Assembly (NCBI GenBank): GCA_029227175.1
Contig: JAQXZK010000034.1
Location: 1-64,000, forward strand
Source: Bacteroidales bacterium
GTDB taxonomy: Bacteria; Bacteroidota; Bacteroidia; Bacteroidales; Bacteroidaceae
Direction of reading: 5' to 3'
DNA: 64,000 bases
Part shown: in pieces, positions 1,022 to 63,532 of the stretch
How the letters are laid out: every line of letters begins with the position of its first letter
How positions within the stretch are numbered: the first letter of the stretch is position 1
The notes under the pieces: model-generated
Seen by the model: only the letters and a program-made list of their open reading frames with translations
Database searches by the model: none
What the model was told of the DNA's origin: nothing
Position numbers and translations under genes: made by a program

Positions 1022-1446
1022 ACTGCTTCGGAGTACAGTAAGTCCGACAAACCTTCTTCGCGCAACGTCCGGGATATCCGACAGAGTGGCAGACACTCCC
1101 GTCTCGTGTGTAAATGCTCTTTGTCAGGCGACAAAACTCATCATCCTGTGTGTAAATACCATCTGTCGCTTTGACAAACGCTCCTGCACGGTGTATAAAT
1201 GCCCTCTGTCGGGTGACAGACCTCATTGTCACATGTGCAAATACCTTCTGTCGCTTTGGCAAACGCTCCTGCACGGTATGTAAACACTCTCTGTCAGTTG
1301 ACAAATCATCTTTACACATCGTTCGGAACACTATGTCATCCCGAAAAACCATCTTGTCACATGTGTAAATGCTCTCTGCCGGTCGACAAACACGTTTTAC
1401 ACATCGTTTGGCATGCTTTGTCACCCAGCGACCATGAACAAAGACA
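1022..1446. repeat. Degenerate tandem array, alternating 42/43-bp units (85-bp dimer)
   Basis: Unit starts at 1107, 1149, 1192, 1234, 1277, 1319, 1362, 1404. The 1149 and 1234 units differ at only 3 of 43 positions; core CTCTGTCRGGTGACAAA. Confidence 0.9.
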
Positions 1447-1675: not shown

Positions 1676-4600
1676 TTACTGCGGAATAATTGTAAAGCCC
1701 CAACGGTAATCCCGGTTTGCCGGCAGGGTATATTGCGGCATCGGACGGTCACCCCAACTGTCAAAGCCAGCCAGACCCTGTTGCTTCATGTCTATGCAGA
1801 CCTCAACAAACGAACGAGGAGTGATATCGTTGACGTGTGTCTGACGACGGATGACGTTGCGCGCCTTTTCTTCGCTGTGGCCGGCAATTTCTTCAGGAGT
1901 GAAATTGTTCCACTGGCGTGGGCGGTTGACTGCTTCTTCCGAGTCAAAGTCTTCCACGCTATTGCGCAAAGCATTGAAAGCGATAAGACTGTCGGCAACA
2001 ATCTTTAGCCCATGTCCTTTTGCATCGGTTAGTGTGAGGAAGCGGGTATCTGTGTGATGACCTGTTTCCTGGGGACGAACGTAGGGATAGTTCTGCTTGT
2101 CTGCGGTAGATGTATAGAGGCCTACCATGGTTCCGGCCTTGCGGTCGATGTAGTTCTCTTCTGGTCCACGTCCGAAGTAAGTGAGTTTGTTCATACCCTG
2201 TGGGAGGCGGAAACGCACACCGATGCGGGGAACATTGAGCTTGGACGCAGCCCGACGTGCTTCCTGACTGCGAGGACTCTCTGTGGCAGTGAGTGTTTCC
2301 TCGCTGACCTCAGTCTTGGCAGCCTCGGCTTCCGTTGAAGTGAAATGAGACTTGACATTGATTACACCGCTTGGGTGAATGGTGTAGGTCATGGCATAGA
2401 TGTTTCCGGCTGCAAGCAGGTATTCGGCCGTGAGGACTACTGCTTTCCCTTCTTGGCGGATGGAGGTTGCCGTCACGTTGAAGTTTTTGCTGCTCTGCTT
2501 CCAGATTTGTTCACGCTTCGGCTGGCCGTTTCCATAGTCATTGTCGGTAGGTGCTCTCCAGAAGTTGGGCTGGATGCCGAAACCTTCGTTGAAATACTCA
2601 CGGTTGTTGACCTTGTAGGAAGTAACGAGCCCGGACTTCTTGTTGAAGACGAACTGCAGGGTAGAAGAAGAAACCTTGATTTCATCGCTGCCATCGTTCA
2701 CAGTCAAAGCTTTTCCGGCTGTGTTGAACTGCTGCGGCAGAGACTCGACAGGAAGTTGAACCTGGTCAGTAGCCACGACATGACCAGCAGGAATACAGCC
2801 AAGTGACTTATTGGCAACAGTCTGGAAGTTGATGAAGTATTCGGTAGCGGCCTTTGGCTTGAGTACACCCAAATTTACGTTGAATTCCTTGCTCTGTTGA
2901 GGACCTAAGTCAAAGTTGAGCTTGCCAGCCTTGAGAGTCTTACCATTTGCCGTAATCTGATAGTTAACGGTATAGTTTTTCAAGTCTGTGAAATAGAAAC
3001 GGTTTGTGATGGAGAAGCGGCCGGCAGCAGCATCGACAGCCTTGATACTGATATCCTGGTGCATGTACTTAATCTCAGCCATGGCAGGATGAGGATCGCG
3101 GTCTGGATTTACCACACCATTGCACAGGAAGTTTCCGTCGCTTGGCGCATCTTTTCCATAGTCGCCTCCGTATGTCCAGTAATGACGACCCTGCTCGTCA
3201 GTTGCATCAATACCCTGGTCAACCCAGTCCCAAATGAAACCGCCTTGCAGATTCGGATACTTGTAGATAGCTTCCCATTGTTCGCGGAAACCACCGGTAG
3301 AGTTACCCATGGCGTGAGCATATTCGGATGGAGCAATAGGCCGGTCTGAGCCGTTTTTACCCATCTCCTCGAACCAGTTTGAGTCAGGATATTGCGGAAC
3401 AAACATATCGGTATTCCACTCCCACAAGGCGCGTTCGTAATTGACAGGACGATTCATGAGGTCCTTGTCTGCATCCTTGAGGTAAAGGTATGTCTGATAG
3501 AAGTTATAACCGTTTCCGGCCTCATTGCCCAAAGACCAGAAATTCACACACGGATAGTTCTTGTTGCGCTCGAACATGTTTTGAGTGCGATAGAGATGTG
3601 GCTTGAGCCATTCTGGGTTATTGCCCAATGTTCCACCCTTCTTGAGGCTGTAGTACATACCGTGGCTTTCTATGTTGGCCTCGTCGTAGACATACAAACC
3701 GTATTCATCGCACAATTCATAGAATCTACGCTGTTGAGGATAGTGGCAGAGGCGGACAGCGTTGAAGTTGTTGAGCTTCATCAGCTCAAAGTCCTTACGC
3801 AGCAACTCTTCGGTTACGTAATGTCCGGTTGCCGGATTATGCTCGTGGATGTTGGTGCCCTTAAGTTTGATGGGCTGACCGTTAACCATCATGACTACAT
3901 ACGGCTTACCGTTGGCTGCTAACTGGTCGATAGGTTTGATTTCAATGCGACGGAAACCGACATTGAAGGGAATCACCTCGCTCACGTTGCCATTTTCTTT
4001 GACAGAGAGCAACAATTTATAAAGATTCGGATGCTCGGATGTCCATGTAAGTACATCCTTGAGTTCCTGACGGTCAAAGACGATAGTGGTATTTTCCTTT
4101 CCGGGGAACACCTGCATGGTTTTTTCTCCGGTCAAAACAGTCTTTCCGCTTTGGTCAAGGAGTTCGTATGAAGCTGTGAGATGAGACTGTTTGGAAGAGT
4201 GATTTGTCACCTGAAGTTTCAAACCGAAAATACCCGTAGTATAGGAATCGTCAAGCGTTGAAACCACGCTAAAGTCTCGGATGGCAACTTTTGGCTCTGC
4301 CATAAGATAGACGTCGCGCTCAATGCCGCTGATGCGCCAAAAGTCCTGACACTCGAGGAAGGATCCCGTAGAAAAGCGGAAGACCTTGAGGGTTACCACG
4401 TTCTTCGAACCCTTCTTCAGATAAGGAGTAATGTTGAACTCGGCTGGGTTTTTGGAGTCCTCGCTATAACCGATTTCCTGCCCGTTGATATAGACATAAG
4501 CAGCAGACTTGATACCTGCGATGTGTAGCAGGACGTCCTTGCCATCCCATGATGTCGGAATGTCAAGTTCTCGGCGATAAACACCAACCGGATTGGCAAT

Positions 4601-5020
4601 GGGAATTTCGGGAGGATTCGGATTGCGGGGTTTGAATTCATAACCGTGATTGACATAAATGGCCGGACCAAAACCTTGTACTTCCCAGTTTCCGGGAACG
4701 GTAATATCCTTCCAGAGAGAGGTGTCAACATCGGCTGCCGTAATGTTTGCCGGAAGATCCTTGTGAGAATCTACATAGTAGAACTTCCAGGTTCCGTTGA
4801 GAGACACATGGTTTACACTGTTGTCGAAAGTTCCCTTTAACGCTTCATCGCGTGTAGGATAGTTCATGAATGACGTTCTGGCCGGTTCCTTCCCGACTGC
4901 AACAGTTTGGATGTCCTGCCAATAAGGAAGGTGCTCTTTCTGCACTTGAGCAGAGAGTGTCAAAGCCTGTGTGAAAACAAGCGCACTCAGTGTTAGATTT
5001 GTAAGAGTTTTCTTTCTCAT
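1676..5020 (-). CDS. Glycoside hydrolase family 2 beta-galactosidase (LacZ-like), secreted
   Basis: 1114 aa; signal peptide; GH2 motifs WSLGNEAGNG and APSEYAHAMGNSTG; C-terminal small-chain-like domain. Confidence 0.95.
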   Translation of the reverse strand: MRKKTLTNLTLSALVFTQALTLSAQVQKEHLPYWQDIQTVAVGKEPARTSFMNYPTRDEALKGTFDNSVNHVSLNGTWKFYYVDSHKDLPANITAADVDTSLWKDITVPGNWEVQGFGPAIYVNHGYEFKPRNPNPPEIPIANPVGVYRRELDIPTSWDGKDVLLHIAGIKSAAYVYINGQEIGYSEDSKNPAEFNITPYLKKGSKNVVTLKVFRFSTGSFLECQDFWRISGIERDVYLMAEPKVAIRDFSVVSTLDDSYTTGIFGLKLQVTNHSSKQSHLTASYELLDQSGKTVLTGEKTMQVFPGKENTTIVFDRQELKDVLTWTSEHPNLYKLLLSVKENGNVSEVIPFNVGFRRIEIKPIDQLAANGKPYVVMMVNGQPIKLKGTNIHEHNPATGHYVTEELLRKDFELMKLNNFNAVRLCHYPQQRRFYELCDEYGLYVYDEANIESHGMYYSLKKGGTLGNNPEWLKPHLYRTQNMFERNKNYPCVNFWSLGNEAGNGYNFYQTYLYLKDADKDLMNRPVNYERALWEWNTDMFVPQYPDSNWFEEMGKNGSDRPIAPSEYAHAMGNSTGGFREQWEAIYKYPNLQGGFIWDWVDQGIDATDEQGRHYWTYGGDYGKDAPSDGNFLCNGVVNPDRDPHPAMAEIKYMHQDISIKAVDAAAGRFSITNRFYFTDLKNYTVNYQITANGKTLKAGKLNFDLGPQQSKEFNVNLGVLKPKAATEYFINFQTVANKSLGCIPAGHVVATDQVQLPVESLPQQFNTAGKALTVNDGSDEIKVSSSTLQFVFNKKSGLVTSYKVNNREYFNEGFGIQPNFWRAPTDNDYGNGQPKREQIWKQSSKNFNVTATSIRQEGKAVVLTAEYLLAAGNIYAMTYTIHPSGVINVKSHFTSTEAEAAKTEVSEETLTATESPRSQEARRAASKLNVPRIGVRFRLPQGMNKLTYFGRGPEENYIDRKAGTMVGLYTSTADKQNYPYVRPQETGHHTDTRFLTLTDAKGHGLKIVADSLIAFNALRNSVEDFDSEEAVNRPRQWNNFTPEEIAGHSEEKARNVIRRQTHVNDITPRSFVEVCIDMKQQGLAGFDSWGDRPMPQYTLPANRDYRWGFTIIPQ

Positions 5021-36441: not shown

Positions 36442-36452
36442 CACACGTAAAG

Positions 36453-36532
36453 ACAAAGGGGTGCCCTTGTGAACAAAGGGCTGAGATTACACCCTCGAAC
36501 CTGATGCAGTTTGTACTGCCGTAGGAATTGTA
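36453..36532 (+). promoter_or_regulatory. TPP (THI-box) riboswitch
   Basis: GGGGTGCCC...GGGCTGAGATTACACCCTCGAACCTGATGCAGTTTGTACTGCCGTAGGAATTG. Confidence 0.96.
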
Positions 36533-36660
36533 TTTATGGGCGTCTGCTCTTCCCTTCACACTCACACCCTCCTTTCTCTTTGCTATAACAATCCTCCCCA
36601 AAAAACATCCCTGATACTGACAGGCGATGTAACAGGTACTAAAAAAACATCTCAAGACCC

Positions 36661-40804: not shown

Positions 40805-41941
40805 ATGTTTTCAGATATACTCAAAGAAATATCCTGGGAAGAGACCACAGACAGGATTGCTTCCATGACAGACGCAGATGTCCGTCGCGCCCTTTCCAAA
40901 TCCCGTTGTGATGTCAACGACTTTATGGCGTTGATTTCACCGGCGGCAGAACCCTATCTGGAGTTTATGGCGCAACTCAGCCGCAAGTATACAGAGGAGC
41001 GTTTCGGCCGTGTCATGTCTATGTTCATACCGCTCTACATCACTAATTCTTGCAGCAATTCATGTGTCTATTGCGGCTTCCATCGGCAGAACCCGATGGC
41101 ACGCACCATTCTCACGCCGGAACAGATTGAAGATGAATATCGGGCCATCAAGCGTCTGGCTCCGTTCGAGAATATTCTTCTCGTGACAGGCGAGAATCCA
41201 GCCAAAGCAGGAGTCCCCTATCTGGCCAAGGCTCTGGACATCGCCAAGAAATATTTTTCAAACCTCAAGATTGAAGTGATGCCTCTGCACACAGAAGAGT
41301 ATGCCGAACTCATCGGTCATGGACTGAACGGTGTCATCTGCTTTCAGGAGACCTATCACCGCGAGAACTACAAGACCTATCATCCGGCCGGCATGAAGAG
41401 CAATTTTGAATGGCGTGTGAACGGATTTGACCGCATGGGACAGGCCGGAGTCCACAGCATTGGCATGGGGGTACTCATCGGTTTGGAGAAAGACTGGCGT
41501 ACCGACGTGACCATGATGGCTCACCACCTGCGCTACCTACAGAAGACTTACTGGCGGACGAAATACAGTGTCAACTTTCCCCGCATGCGGCCGGCGCAAA
41601 ACGAGGGTTTTCACCCGAATTGCCTCATGACGGATAAGGAATTGGCACAGGCTACCTTCGCTATGCGCATATTCGACCACGATGTCGACATCAGCTACTC
41701 CACCCGCGAACCGGCCTATATACGCGACGGCATGTGTACGCTGGGAGTTACGACCATGAGTGCAGAGAGTAAGGTGAATCCCGGCGGTTACCACACCGAC
41801 CCTCAGGCCCTGGAACAATTCACGGTCAGCGACGAGCGCAGTGCCCGGGAAATCAACCGACGGCTTCGGGAACTGGGTCGCGAACCGGTATGGAAAGACT
41901 GGGATTCAAGCTTCGACTACATGAACCGTGTAAACCGATAA
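40805..41941 (+). CDS. thiH: 2-iminoacetate synthase ThiH (radical SAM)
   Basis: CSNSCVYCGF radical-SAM CxxxCxxC; QETYHRENYKTYHPAG. Confidence 0.95.
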   Translation: MFSDILKEISWEETTDRIASMTDADVRRALSKSRCDVNDFMALISPAAEPYLEFMAQLSRKYTEERFGRVMSMFIPLYITNSCSNSCVYCGFHRQNPMARTILTPEQIEDEYRAIKRLAPFENILLVTGENPAKAGVPYLAKALDIAKKYFSNLKIEVMPLHTEEYAELIGHGLNGVICFQETYHRENYKTYHPAGMKSNFEWRVNGFDRMGQAGVHSIGMGVLIGLEKDWRTDVTMMAHHLRYLQKTYWRTKYSVNFPRMRPAQNEGFHPNCLMTDKELAQATFAMRIFDHDVDISYSTREPAYIRDGMCTLGVTTMSAESKVNPGGYHTDPQALEQFTVSDERSAREINRRLRELGREPVWKDWDSSFDYMNRVNR

Positions 41942-41964
41942 CCAATCACAAGCATCAGCAAGAT

Positions 41965-42444
41965 ATGGATATGAGTCAGGAAGACAGAAAATGGATGAGA
42001 CAGGCTATCCGTCTCAGTGTGGAGAATGTGGATAACGGAGGAGGTCCTTTCGGCGCTGTCATTGTTAAGGAACACTCGCTCATTGCCGAGGGAGTGAACC
42101 GTGTGACAGCCAACAATGACCCGACCGCTCATGCCGAGGTCAGCGCCATTCGCGCCGCCTGCCTCAGGTTGAAAAGTCACAGTCTGGAAGGATGTACCAT
42201 CTACACCTCGTGCGAGCCGTGCCCCATGTGTCTCAGCGCCATCTATTGGGCCGGTATAAGGCGTATTTGCTACGGGAACACCAAGGCGGATGCCGAGCAC
42301 ATACACTTCGGCGACAAGTTTATCTACGACGAGATAGCCAAACCCTGTGCCGAGCGTTCCATCCCTATGGAATCCATCATGCGTGACGAAGCACTTGAGG
42401 CCTTCCGCAAGTGGGAGGAGAAGGAAGACAAGATACCCTACTGA
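41965..42444 (+). CDS. Nucleoside/guanine deaminase (CDA fold)
   Basis: PTAHAEVSAIRAAC and TSCEPCPMCLSAIYW zinc motifs; start trimmed to ATG after thiH. Confidence 0.9.
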   Translation: MDMSQEDRKWMRQAIRLSVENVDNGGGPFGAVIVKEHSLIAEGVNRVTANNDPTAHAEVSAIRAACLRLKSHSLEGCTIYTSCEPCPMCLSAIYWAGIRRICYGNTKADAEHIHFGDKFIYDEIAKPCAERSIPMESIMRDEALEAFRKWEEKEDKIPY

Positions 42445-42898: not shown

Positions 42899-42923
42899 AA
42901 ATGCAAAAGATTTTTTTGCATTT
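42899..42923. terminator. A/T-flanked hairpin
   Basis: AAATGCAAAAGATTTTTTTGCATTT. Confidence 0.6.
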
Positions 42924-42959
42924 ATTCACTGTAAGACGGCAAAATAAACTACATAAGGC

Positions 42960-43464
42960 CATTTGAAGCCTTACAAGACCTTTGCGGAAAAATTCATTTT
43001 TACATTGCACAACATCAATTAACGTGCGGAAAATTCCGCAAAGGTTCTGCAAGCCTGCAAGACTTCTGCGAAAAAACTCATTTTAACATTGCATAACTTC
43101 GATTAACGTGCGGAAAATTCCGCAAAGGTTCTGCAAGCCTGCAAGACTTTTGCGGGAAAAATCATTTTTACATTGCATAACTTCGATTAACGTGCGGAAA
43201 ATTCCGTAAAGATTCTGCAAGCCTGCAAGACTTCTACGGGAAAACTCATTTTAATATTGCGCAACTTTGATTAACGTGCGGAAAATTCCGCAAGGGTTCT
43301 GCAAGCCTGCAAAGGGCCTGCGTTTTTTTTCGCAAAGCCTCTGCACGACAGCAAGGCGGCGGCGTTTTATCCCTCAAAAGGTCTGCAAGCTGACCAAGAA
43401 GCCGGGGTTTCTCCTGCCAAGTCTCTGTCGGGTTGCAAAGGTCTGTCGCCCGGGGATGTCAAGC
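42960..43464. repeat. 84-bp (2 x 42-bp) tandem array followed by degenerate 42-bp units
   Basis: TTAACGTGCGGAAAATTCCGCAAAGGTTCTGCAAGCCTGCAAGACT... starts at 43019, 43103, 43187, 43271 (exactly 84); 42-bp units at 43297, 43339, 43381, 43423. Confidence 0.95.
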
Positions 43465-43784: not shown

Positions 43785-46697
43785 TCAAAACAAGTCGTAG
43801 AGAACGGCATAGCATCCCTCTTTGGCTTTCCGGAAACGGAATGCCGGGAGGGTCGTCACGCTTCTGCCTTTGGGAAGATGAACCTTTCGGAAGACCTTCT
43901 GTTCGATGCGTTTTCCCTTGGGGTCGACCAGTGTAACCTTCAAGTCTACTACGGCTTCATCGGCAAGGTTGAAAATAACGGGAGTGATGACATCGTCCGG
44001 CCCATAGACCACATCGACATCCTGGCTACCGGCCCAACGGCGTTGGAATACCTGTTTGTTGGCATAATAGGCCAGTTTGGGCACGCCCACGGCATCTACC
44101 AACGGTTTCTGGTAGGTAAACATGTTGGCACCTGACTCCAAGCTGCACCACGAGAATCCGTCATAGCCAAGCAGTGTCTGTTTCTTCATCGACTCCCAGG
44201 CAGAGAAGGCCTGGAACGCCTGGCTGACGCGCCACTCATTGGCCTGCAATTTCCGGCCGATACTTCCCTCTTCGTATTCCCACTCGTAGGACTGCACCTC
44301 GTACCACGGTTCGTTCCGGACCAACGCCCAGTTAGGCTGCGCAGCCGACTCTTCGTGCTCAAAATTGAAATAGCATTTTTCATTGGCCTTCAAGCAGGAT
44401 GCTGCCCAGGGATTGGGGGCTTTCCTCAGATAGCTCCACTTGGCGCCGTAACCCGTGTAGGCATCCTGACTTCCACGGGTCATGAGCTTGTCCATAATGA
44501 CGGGCGTCGGTGTCATGGGATTGCCCTTGTAGTCGATGGTTCCGTCATAGTTCCCATAATGGGTATGCTGCCAGAAGGATGTAGGCGAAATCAGTCGGCT
44601 GGTATCGGCACTGCTTATGCTCTGGAAAATGCGGGTCATATAGTCATTCGAGTCTGAGAGACCGTGTCTTTTAAAACGATTGGGGTGATTGCTCGCTTCC
44701 CACATCACGATAGAAGGATGATTATAGACCTCCATCATGTAGCGGGGATAGCCGTCAAAGTCCACATTCCAGGCCTCTCCCTCACGCACCCAGCCGGCAG
44801 TTTGCCAAAGCAGGTAAACACCCATCTGATCGGCATACTCTGCATAGCGCGGGTCGTTGATTCCGTCGATGGTGTCTTTCTCTGCATGGACATGGATGCG
44901 CAACAGGTTGCCGTTCATCTTTTTTATCATCATCAAATCCCGGACAACCGTTTCGGCCGGCACGCAACGGTTGGTCTTGGCCGCTGTTTCGACGGGGTAT
45001 CTGTGACCCATGATTTGCGCTCCGTTGAGCATTTCCACATGATGATTGACATAAAGCGTACCTTCGCGCTGCTCAATGGTGCGTATGCCGGTGGTGGTGG
45101 CCAAATCGTCGAGGGGCTGTCCATCCTTGTCCGTTAGAATCACTTCCACCCGGTAGAGCGTCGGACTCGTTGTCTCCCAAAGTTGCGGATGCTCAACGGG
45201 CACCTGCACGACATACTCGTTGTCTACCGAGGGGCGGATTTCTATGTTCCTGCTGACAGAAGCCACCCGCTCACCCTCCGTAGGGAACCAGGGATAATAG
45301 TTGACCTCAAGCCGGGCCATCCTGCTCTCAACTTCGCGGTTCTGAACCACAATTCGGTGAGTCTGCACAGCCCGGTCACCGTCAAGTGAAGCGGTGTGTA
45401 CCCGACAGGCCTTCAGCTGGCACCGATGGGTCAGCAACAGCGTTGTACGCCCCAGCTGCCAGCCGATGTATGGGTCTGAAGGAGAATGTTCCATGACGTG
45501 TGCAGCCTTATAAGGCTTTACACGCACGGCTATCACATTCTCACTGTTGGCCAAAAGGTAATTCGTAACGTCTATATCCTGAGGATGCCTGCCTTGCAAT
45601 ACAGCGGCCACTTGTCCGTTGACCCACACCTCACCTCCCGGGTCGAGAGTCTCCAAGTGCAGGGTAGCGCGTTCAAATGTCCCGATTTGCAATTTATGAC
45701 GCAGGTAATAGCTTTCTTCCTTTTCAGCCAGTCCGCCATGGACAGAAGGCAACTTGACATTGTTCCAGTGGCTGTCATCATAATCGGCCTCCTGCCAGCC
45801 GTTCATAGAGGGGACTTCCTCGAAATCCTCAAAGAGCGGAAGAGCGATGCTGTAAGGAGTGCGTCGGTTTGTAAAGTCCGGCACAAAGTCGTAAAGCGAA
45901 ACCTCTTCCACCAGCATTTCTCCTTGGGGAGAAGCAAAGACGATGCGGTCAAAATCCTGTGGGCCTTCGGGCGCAATGGGGCAGCAGACTTCCTGCCGGC
46001 CATTCAGTTTCAGGAAGAGTTTCCTGTTGGCAAAGTCTCCATAAAGCTCGATGGTACGACAGCCCCCTCTGTCGAGGGAGACAAGACTCTGTCTGTTTGT
46101 GCCGGATGAAACGACGAGATTCTGCCGTTCTCCAGTGAGCGAACATACGGTGCTCTCTCCCCGTTGCAGAGCAATGGCAAACGAGGAAGTGCCCTCCCCG
46201 AGCTTTGTCTTGAAGCGGAAGCGCCAGTTCACGGAAGGAACGGAACGAATCACCCGGGCATGACGGATGGAAAGTGCGCCATTGGAAATAGTCGCCCCCG
46301 TTGCAGTCCACTCCTTCCATCTCTCTTTTTGCTGCTGCGCCTTATCAGCCTTGTAGCCTATGGCGTTCCAATGCTCGAGGCGTAAGGTCTGACGTATCCG
46401 GGTCGACGGCTGAGGTTTAATGGCATCCAGACATGACTTGACATCCTGCTCACTGAGCAATGGACGGTTCAGTTCAGGATTCTGCCAATAGTTTGCAGCA
46501 AACCCTGCATATTGTTCCAGGAAATCAATGCGCTGAGACAAATCCATCCATTCCGTTTCACCGTGGAAATCGGTCTCGCCATTGGCCTTCGCGTCCTGCG
46601 TAAAATAGCGCATCTCGAAAGAGCTGGACACCTGCGCGTTCACTTGTGAAGTAATGAGTATGCAGCATGAAATGCCAACTAAAAAATTCTTCTTCAT
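43785..46697 (-). CDS. Divergent glycoside hydrolase family 2-type protein, secreted
   Basis: 970 aa; signal peptide; sugar-binding jelly roll (LHLETLDPGGEVWVNGQ) and TIM-barrel region HPSIVMWEASNHPN. Confidence 0.85.
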   Translation of the reverse strand: MKKNFLVGISCCILITSQVNAQVSSSFEMRYFTQDAKANGETDFHGETEWMDLSQRIDFLEQYAGFAANYWQNPELNRPLLSEQDVKSCLDAIKPQPSTRIRQTLRLEHWNAIGYKADKAQQQKERWKEWTATGATISNGALSIRHARVIRSVPSVNWRFRFKTKLGEGTSSFAIALQRGESTVCSLTGERQNLVVSSGTNRQSLVSLDRGGCRTIELYGDFANRKLFLKLNGRQEVCCPIAPEGPQDFDRIVFASPQGEMLVEEVSLYDFVPDFTNRRTPYSIALPLFEDFEEVPSMNGWQEADYDDSHWNNVKLPSVHGGLAEKEESYYLRHKLQIGTFERATLHLETLDPGGEVWVNGQVAAVLQGRHPQDIDVTNYLLANSENVIAVRVKPYKAAHVMEHSPSDPYIGWQLGRTTLLLTHRCQLKACRVHTASLDGDRAVQTHRIVVQNREVESRMARLEVNYYPWFPTEGERVASVSRNIEIRPSVDNEYVVQVPVEHPQLWETTSPTLYRVEVILTDKDGQPLDDLATTTGIRTIEQREGTLYVNHHVEMLNGAQIMGHRYPVETAAKTNRCVPAETVVRDLMMIKKMNGNLLRIHVHAEKDTIDGINDPRYAEYADQMGVYLLWQTAGWVREGEAWNVDFDGYPRYMMEVYNHPSIVMWEASNHPNRFKRHGLSDSNDYMTRIFQSISSADTSRLISPTSFWQHTHYGNYDGTIDYKGNPMTPTPVIMDKLMTRGSQDAYTGYGAKWSYLRKAPNPWAASCLKANEKCYFNFEHEESAAQPNWALVRNEPWYEVQSYEWEYEEGSIGRKLQANEWRVSQAFQAFSAWESMKKQTLLGYDGFSWCSLESGANMFTYQKPLVDAVGVPKLAYYANKQVFQRRWAGSQDVDVVYGPDDVITPVIFNLADEAVVDLKVTLVDPKGKRIEQKVFRKVHLPKGRSVTTLPAFRFRKAKEGCYAVLYDLF

Positions 46698-63322: not shown

Positions 63323-63532
63323 GCTTTTTCTGCAGCCTGTTGGACCACTTCACCAGCATCACACCTTCTTCAACAACAATCCACGGGCATTCATTCAGAT
63401 AGATTCTACCAACTGCATCATGACAAAACCATTTCGGAAATCGGAAAATACCAACTACACGATGACAACGGCATTTTAGAAATCGGAAAGTGAGAGCCAC
63501 GCAAAAACGACAAATAATTGCGAAAGAAATAA
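63323..63532. repeat. 42-bp periodic repeat (two clear units, weaker flanks)
   Basis: TACCAACTGCATCATGACAAAACCATTTCGGAAATCGGAAAA (63407) and TACCAACTACACGATGACAACGGCATTTTAGAAATCGGAAAG (63449). Confidence 0.75.

Follow-up and report, generated by a model that had tools for sequence, protein, structure and literature searches.

Described intergenic repeats and the two arrays of the window

BOX elements of Streptococcus pneumoniae are dispersed between genes and consist of border modules flanking a variable number of internal repeats of about 45 bp, in the arrangement boxA-boxB-boxC. BrickBuilt of Porphyromonas gingivalis is an intergenic minisatellite with 19 dispersed copies, border segments and an association with assembly gaps (PMC4596501). 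Its unit is 23 nt long (AGAYCATARTATCCTCTCRTRTG), and its leader and tail carry IS5-type terminal inverted repeats (PMC4596501). The REP/BIME elements of the GTAG and CGTC super-families are short, clustered extragenic palindromes, mostly located downstream of genes (PMC3733652). These three are the nearest kinds to the arrays reported here, of which no description was found in the literature. The preliminary description of this DNA, in which the arrays were proposed as an undescribed element, was upheld in this respect.

The window, the whole stretch of 64,000 nucleotides of a Bacteroidales genome that was analysed, holds two tandem arrays, locus 1 and locus 2 (Table 1). Both are intergenic, with TRF periods of 85 and 84, respectively. 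The dyad TTTGTC-N4..6-GACAAA, named P1, recurs through locus 1. BrickBuilt is the nearest described element in kind, being likewise a dispersed and bordered intergenic minisatellite of the Bacteroidales that is tied to assembly gaps. However, its 23-nt unit carries no P1 dyad, whereas the units here are 42/43 and 84 bp long with other sequences, as compared by eye. No inverted pair was seen in the array borders read by eye, many arrays ending at contig ends. The likeness to REP/BIME lies in short clustered extragenic palindromes with a predominantly gene-downstream position. However, the tag GTAG was found in 0/324 and CGTC in 1/324 of the sequences flanking the dyads, and a Y1 (RAYT-type) transposase (PF01797) was absent from the genome, which is 92% complete. 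REP/BIME with RAYT was excluded because both the tags and the transposase are missing. The tetramer GGAG was present in 46/324 flanks as filler sequence only. BOX shares the modular architecture, the level at which it was compared, but its host belongs to another phylum.

The cores quoted in the preliminary description were confirmed in the window sequence, and so was the location of both arrays 3' of a minus-strand GH2 gene. The proximity to GH2 genes had been called a possible coincidence. It indeed looks like one, because the remaining array copies in the genome adjoin many different, unrelated genes. The closest named GH2 relatives, from Phocaeicola and Bacteroides, suggest Bacteroides as the probable genus. 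Besides the arrays, the window contains a TPP riboswitch (36447-36544) ahead of a thiamine biosynthesis cluster, which reaches as far as the gene next to locus 2. At window 63407-63489 lies a two-copy 42-bp tandem repeat (TACCAACTACACCATGACAAAACC...), possibly another, unrelated 42-bp repeat.

Table 1. Arrays, dyads and neighbouring genes in the window
Feature	Position	Strand	Basis
Locus 1, P1-family array, subtype B	about 1040-1440	.	42/43-bp steps, 85-bp higher-order period
P1 dyad 1 of locus 1, exact, TTTGTCAGGCGACAAA	1120-1135	.	dyad count
P1 dyad 2 of locus 1, TCTGTCGCTTTGACAAA	1162-1178	.	dyad count
P1 dyad 3 of locus 1, TCTGTCGGGTGACAGA	1205-1220	.	dyad count
P1 dyad 4 of locus 1, TCTGTCGCTTTGGCAAA	1247-1263	.	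dyad count
P1 dyad 5 of locus 1, TCTGTCAGTTGACAAA	1290-1305	.	dyad count
P1 dyad 6 of locus 1, degenerate, TATGTCATCCCGAAAAA	1332-1348	.	dyad count
P1 dyad 7 of locus 1, TCTGCCGGTCGACAAA	1375-1390	.	dyad count
GH2 beta-galactosidase, right neighbour of locus 1	1676-5020	-	context
Zinc-binding deaminase, left neighbour of locus 2	41890-42444	+	context
Left flank of locus 2, common to the type A array on contig C16 (L002)	42911-42935	+	direct reading
Locus 2, four 84-bp type A units and part of a fifth	42964-43312	+	TRF, comparison with genome copies
Locus 2 tail, looser degenerate units at 42-bp spacing (the stretch named in the preliminary description)	43297 to ~43464	+	
GH2-family hydrolase, right neighbour of locus 2	43785-46697	-	context

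Relationship between locus 1 and locus 2

P1 dyads were counted in both loci as TTTGTC-N4/5-GACAAA with up to two mismatches allowed. Seven P1-like dyads appeared in locus 1 at 1120-1390, against 0.05 expected from dinucleotide shuffles. The same count gave no P1 dyad in locus 2 and nothing above chance there. The cores of the locus 2 tail begin at 43297, 43339, 43381 and 43423, that is, every 42 bp. Five profiles were made: one of locus 1 only, one of subtype B (31 units of the locus 1 relatives), one of subtype C (117 units), one of the 41-bp units seen in a further genus (g14) and one of the 84-bp units that locus 2 shares with its relatives (type A). Each profile was scored on the arrays and on 300 dinucleotide shuffles per array. 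The B, C and g14 profiles recognise one another's arrays with total scores that no shuffle reached. On the five type A arrays, the B profile scores 0 throughout, and the C profile stands above the shuffles for the total of L002 only and is otherwise noise. The type A profile gives 0 or noise level on the B and C arrays. The preliminary description had proposed scoring a locus 1 HMM on locus 2. The best match of the locus 1-only profile there covers 18 bp (43422-43439) at 7.5 bits, equalled by 1/300 and 0/300 shuffles in two runs; two weaker matches accompany it and neither exceeds 5 bits. Thus, one marginal match is left for the shared core that had been claimed. A link between the g14 arrays and type A through a common AAACTCATTTT was tried and did not rise above shuffles, with a marginal exception in one array.

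The profile scores and the dyad counts of seven and none point to two separate families, which appear to have setting and period in common and no demonstrable core. The arrays do prove to be intergenic, periodic at about 42/84 bp and multi-copy in the genome, as had been described, but the view of them as one family lost its support, since the B and C profiles give no consistent signal on type A.

The type A family comprises four further 84-bp arrays, on contigs C16, C178, C74 and C63, with identities of 72-85%. Its profile gives 20 matches in the window's own genome and one weak match of 17.6 bits among 60 other genomes of the same genus. The deaminase orthologue was fetched at 29 same-genus loci, none of which has a tandem array beside the gene. 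Every type A unit bears the dyads TGCARGCYTGCA and TGCGGAAAATTCCGCA. The locus 2 family, too, is built of short dyads, with a sequence relation to P1 that is not demonstrable. In the C74 copies, one dyad pair is altered on both sides (GC to TA); covariation is overall not convincing.

Copy number, spacing and ordered structure of the P1 arrays

The genome to which the window belongs (2.88 Mb in 232 contigs) has the exact P1 pattern (TTTGTC-N4..6-GACAAA) at 61 places, against 2 for the reversed-pattern control. The census of this genome was made by pattern and profile searches and on selected stretches, and P1 arrays were found at about 20 places among the matches listed, extending up to ~600 bp. 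Most of the dyads have an N5 spacer. The distance between neighbouring dyads is 41.5-43 bp in 121/138 cases, and most of the remainder are 84-86 bp. About 13 contigs have an array at an end or close to it (C12, C14, C32, C61, C62, C79, C96, C112, C134, C151, C163, C168 and C202), a count in which a few ends may represent two sides of one locus. This frequency at contig ends suggests that P1 arrays interrupt the assembly. All of the 27 arrays checked from both families are intergenic (27/27). Flanking genes were called by codon usage, and among the 14 arrays with both neighbours called, 8 lie between tandem, 5 between convergent and 1 between divergent genes. The expectation of convergent gene ends in the preliminary description therefore applies to the five and not to the other nine.

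The arrays of subtype C, read by eye, are ordered. A border unit (AAAGTCTCTTAGCGAGTGT-CCGG) is followed by several CACCCCCCAC units, one A-run/T-run dyad unit, several CGGATAAGGCAC units and then CACCCC units again. The B array L014 ends in a border unit similar to that of subtype C, and therefore the two subtypes are tied together. Five other B arrays (L016-L020; contigs C106, C61, C28, C79 and C202) have a further border of ~190 bp in common. It contains a Bacteroidetes-type promoter that points away from the array to unrelated genes, an assignment based on the consensus TTTTG-N19-TAYCYTTG. These borders would be promoter-carrying repeat ends. The promoter is followed in L016-L020 by a hairpin-like start, GGGTGAAACCC. 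SIMPL, DUF6261, methyltransferase, DUF3127 and other unrelated genes lie after or near the ~190-bp borders. A second dispersed repeat (GCAGCCTATCTTATC-AAAGTAGTGCAAAC), presumably similar to a promoter repeat common in Bacteroides, adjoins two arrays (L209:1900-2030 and L014:1400-1480). Also, a PglZ-domain gene of a BREX-type defence family (L014:2116-3345) adjoins one array.

P1 arrays are found beyond this genome as well. In the genus g14, 9/45 genomes match the G199 array, carrying P1 with different fillers. Genera g10, g12, g13 and g15, which belong to the same family, likewise have arrays with different fillers, and so does a further family (G576). Two same-genus species have pure P1 arrays at 23-bp spacing. 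With the strict pair pattern, 388/399 genomes of the family gave no arrays. The gap was fixed at 22-28 bases in the same-genus and family-wide pair searches, and therefore the spacing of ~42 bp in them is partly imposed; the search with a gap of 19-48 bases, which found the arrays of the other family, still yielded ~42 bp. Single P1 matches in several genomes, some of them in coding sequence, are background, since the reversed-pattern controls also gave 1-3. A phage origin was tried with one pattern, and the viral contigs gave no match.

Some of these genomes contain related forms. Short P1-like dyad arrays of ~21-bp spacing in G382 (L236:1480-1565 and L242:1500-1585) sit just 3' of promoter-like sequences on several contigs, which is a 5' leader position and not a post-gene one. 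In G153 (L232:1330-1640), TGTC-N4-GACA and TTGCAGCGCTGCA dyads alternate about every 21 bp, so that one array combines P1-type dyads with a TGCA dyad resembling the one in type A. In G486 (L239:1580-1850), a second array of ~42 bp based on a different dyad (CGGGAATCCCGA) adjoins the P1 array.

Dyad conservation, non-compensatory arms and their possible meaning

The dyad is kept where the filler is not. Of 66 filler comparisons, 8 differ from shuffles at the 2% level, chiefly those among g14, g13 and one own subtype. Conservation of the dyad therefore goes further than that of the fillers. Among 202 dyads of the own genome, positions 1-4 and 6 of the arm are conserved at 91-99%. Position 5 is T or C, with changes that mostly affect a single arm of a dyad. 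It is altered on both arms in 9 dyads against 23 expected (p=6e-6), or in 7 against 13 when distinct sequences are counted (p=0.01), and these statistics come from array copies that are not independent observations. A paired stem would favour the complementary double change, which is under-represented here. This speaks against a stem, whether in RNA or as a cruciform, and in favour of putative half-sites read by a dimeric protein, and it fits a dimer that would need at least one good half-site.

Our tentative preference, held at somewhat less than even confidence, is that the P1 arrays are a cooperative putative protein-binding platform that would form a boundary between transcription units. 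Each dyad would be recognised by a sequence-specific, dimeric DNA-binding protein requiring at least one good TTTGTC half-site. The pitch of ~42 bp, about four helical turns, would align the sites along the same side of the helix, and dimers would load cooperatively across 100-600 bp between genes. The loaded array may then act as an architectural or topological boundary separating the transcription units. The copies would have spread in the genome via recombination or mobilisation of whole arrays. The phasing is only suggestive because the 23-bp pitch in two same-genus species does not correspond to an integral number of helical turns. Counting against the binding platform, fresh duplications alone would also yield motif conservation and an even spacing, the strict pair pattern leaves most genomes in the family without arrays, and locus 2 has no P1 dyad.

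The arrays may instead be a selfish intergenic satellite or a non-autonomous mobile element (BrickBuilt-, MITE- or BOX-like) without host function. A transposase or recombination would copy bordered arrays from one intergenic site to another, and slippage would expand them. We consider this quite possible, if on balance doubtful. In its favour are composite arrays with a border unit and a unit order in common at many unrelated loci, the ~190-bp border common to five arrays beside unrelated genes and the patchy species distribution with high copy number in single genomes (the own genome and G382). Against it, the dyad arms are kept across genera and the fillers mostly are not, and an inspection that was not systematic brought out neither terminal inverted repeats nor target duplications. 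The binding platform is favoured over the satellite, and both may hold together.

Dyad hairpins in transcripts might protect or terminate mRNA 3' ends, as was proposed for REP. At least one gene 3' end adjoins most of the arrays, and the folds of both window arrays are more stable than those of their dinucleotide shuffles (z -3.75 and -4.36), but such folding is expected of any palindromic array. Besides the deficit of complementary double changes, the P1 stem has only 6 AT-rich pairs, and mismatched variants of either arm occur in one orientation inside one array. The Rfam 15 covariance models at gathering score matched only tRNAs and the TPP riboswitch in the whole window and neither array. 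This RNA-level role is improbable. An encoded protein of 14-residue repeats, which the preliminary description had read as xLCxxxK, is hardly credible: 42 and 84 are divisible by three and a 201-aa frame crosses locus 1, but that frame has no Pfam match, the units of relatives are 41, 43 and 23 bp, and the 42/43- and 85-bp steps shift the frame, because of which the coding repeat was rejected for locus 1.

As they stand, the P1 arrays belong with the known kind of dispersed intergenic repeat arrays, and a dedicated binding protein would have to exist for them to be anything beyond that. A broader proposal, which we consider unlikely, is an undescribed chromosome-architecture system of the Bacteroidales. 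A conserved putative dimer recognising TTTGTC-N4..6-GACAAA would repeatedly have favoured intergenic arrays in different genera, with a dyad about every four helical turns and the filler free to evolve, and these would form nucleoprotein boundaries between transcription units. The P1 family matches nothing in Rfam or in the literature searched. Even as a selfish satellite, it is a large repeat family, which coincides with many breaks in the assembly of this genome. Should the dyad be bound by a protein, the arrays would point to a new DNA-architectural protein in one of the dominant bacterial orders of the gut and would serve as a ready probe for finding that protein.
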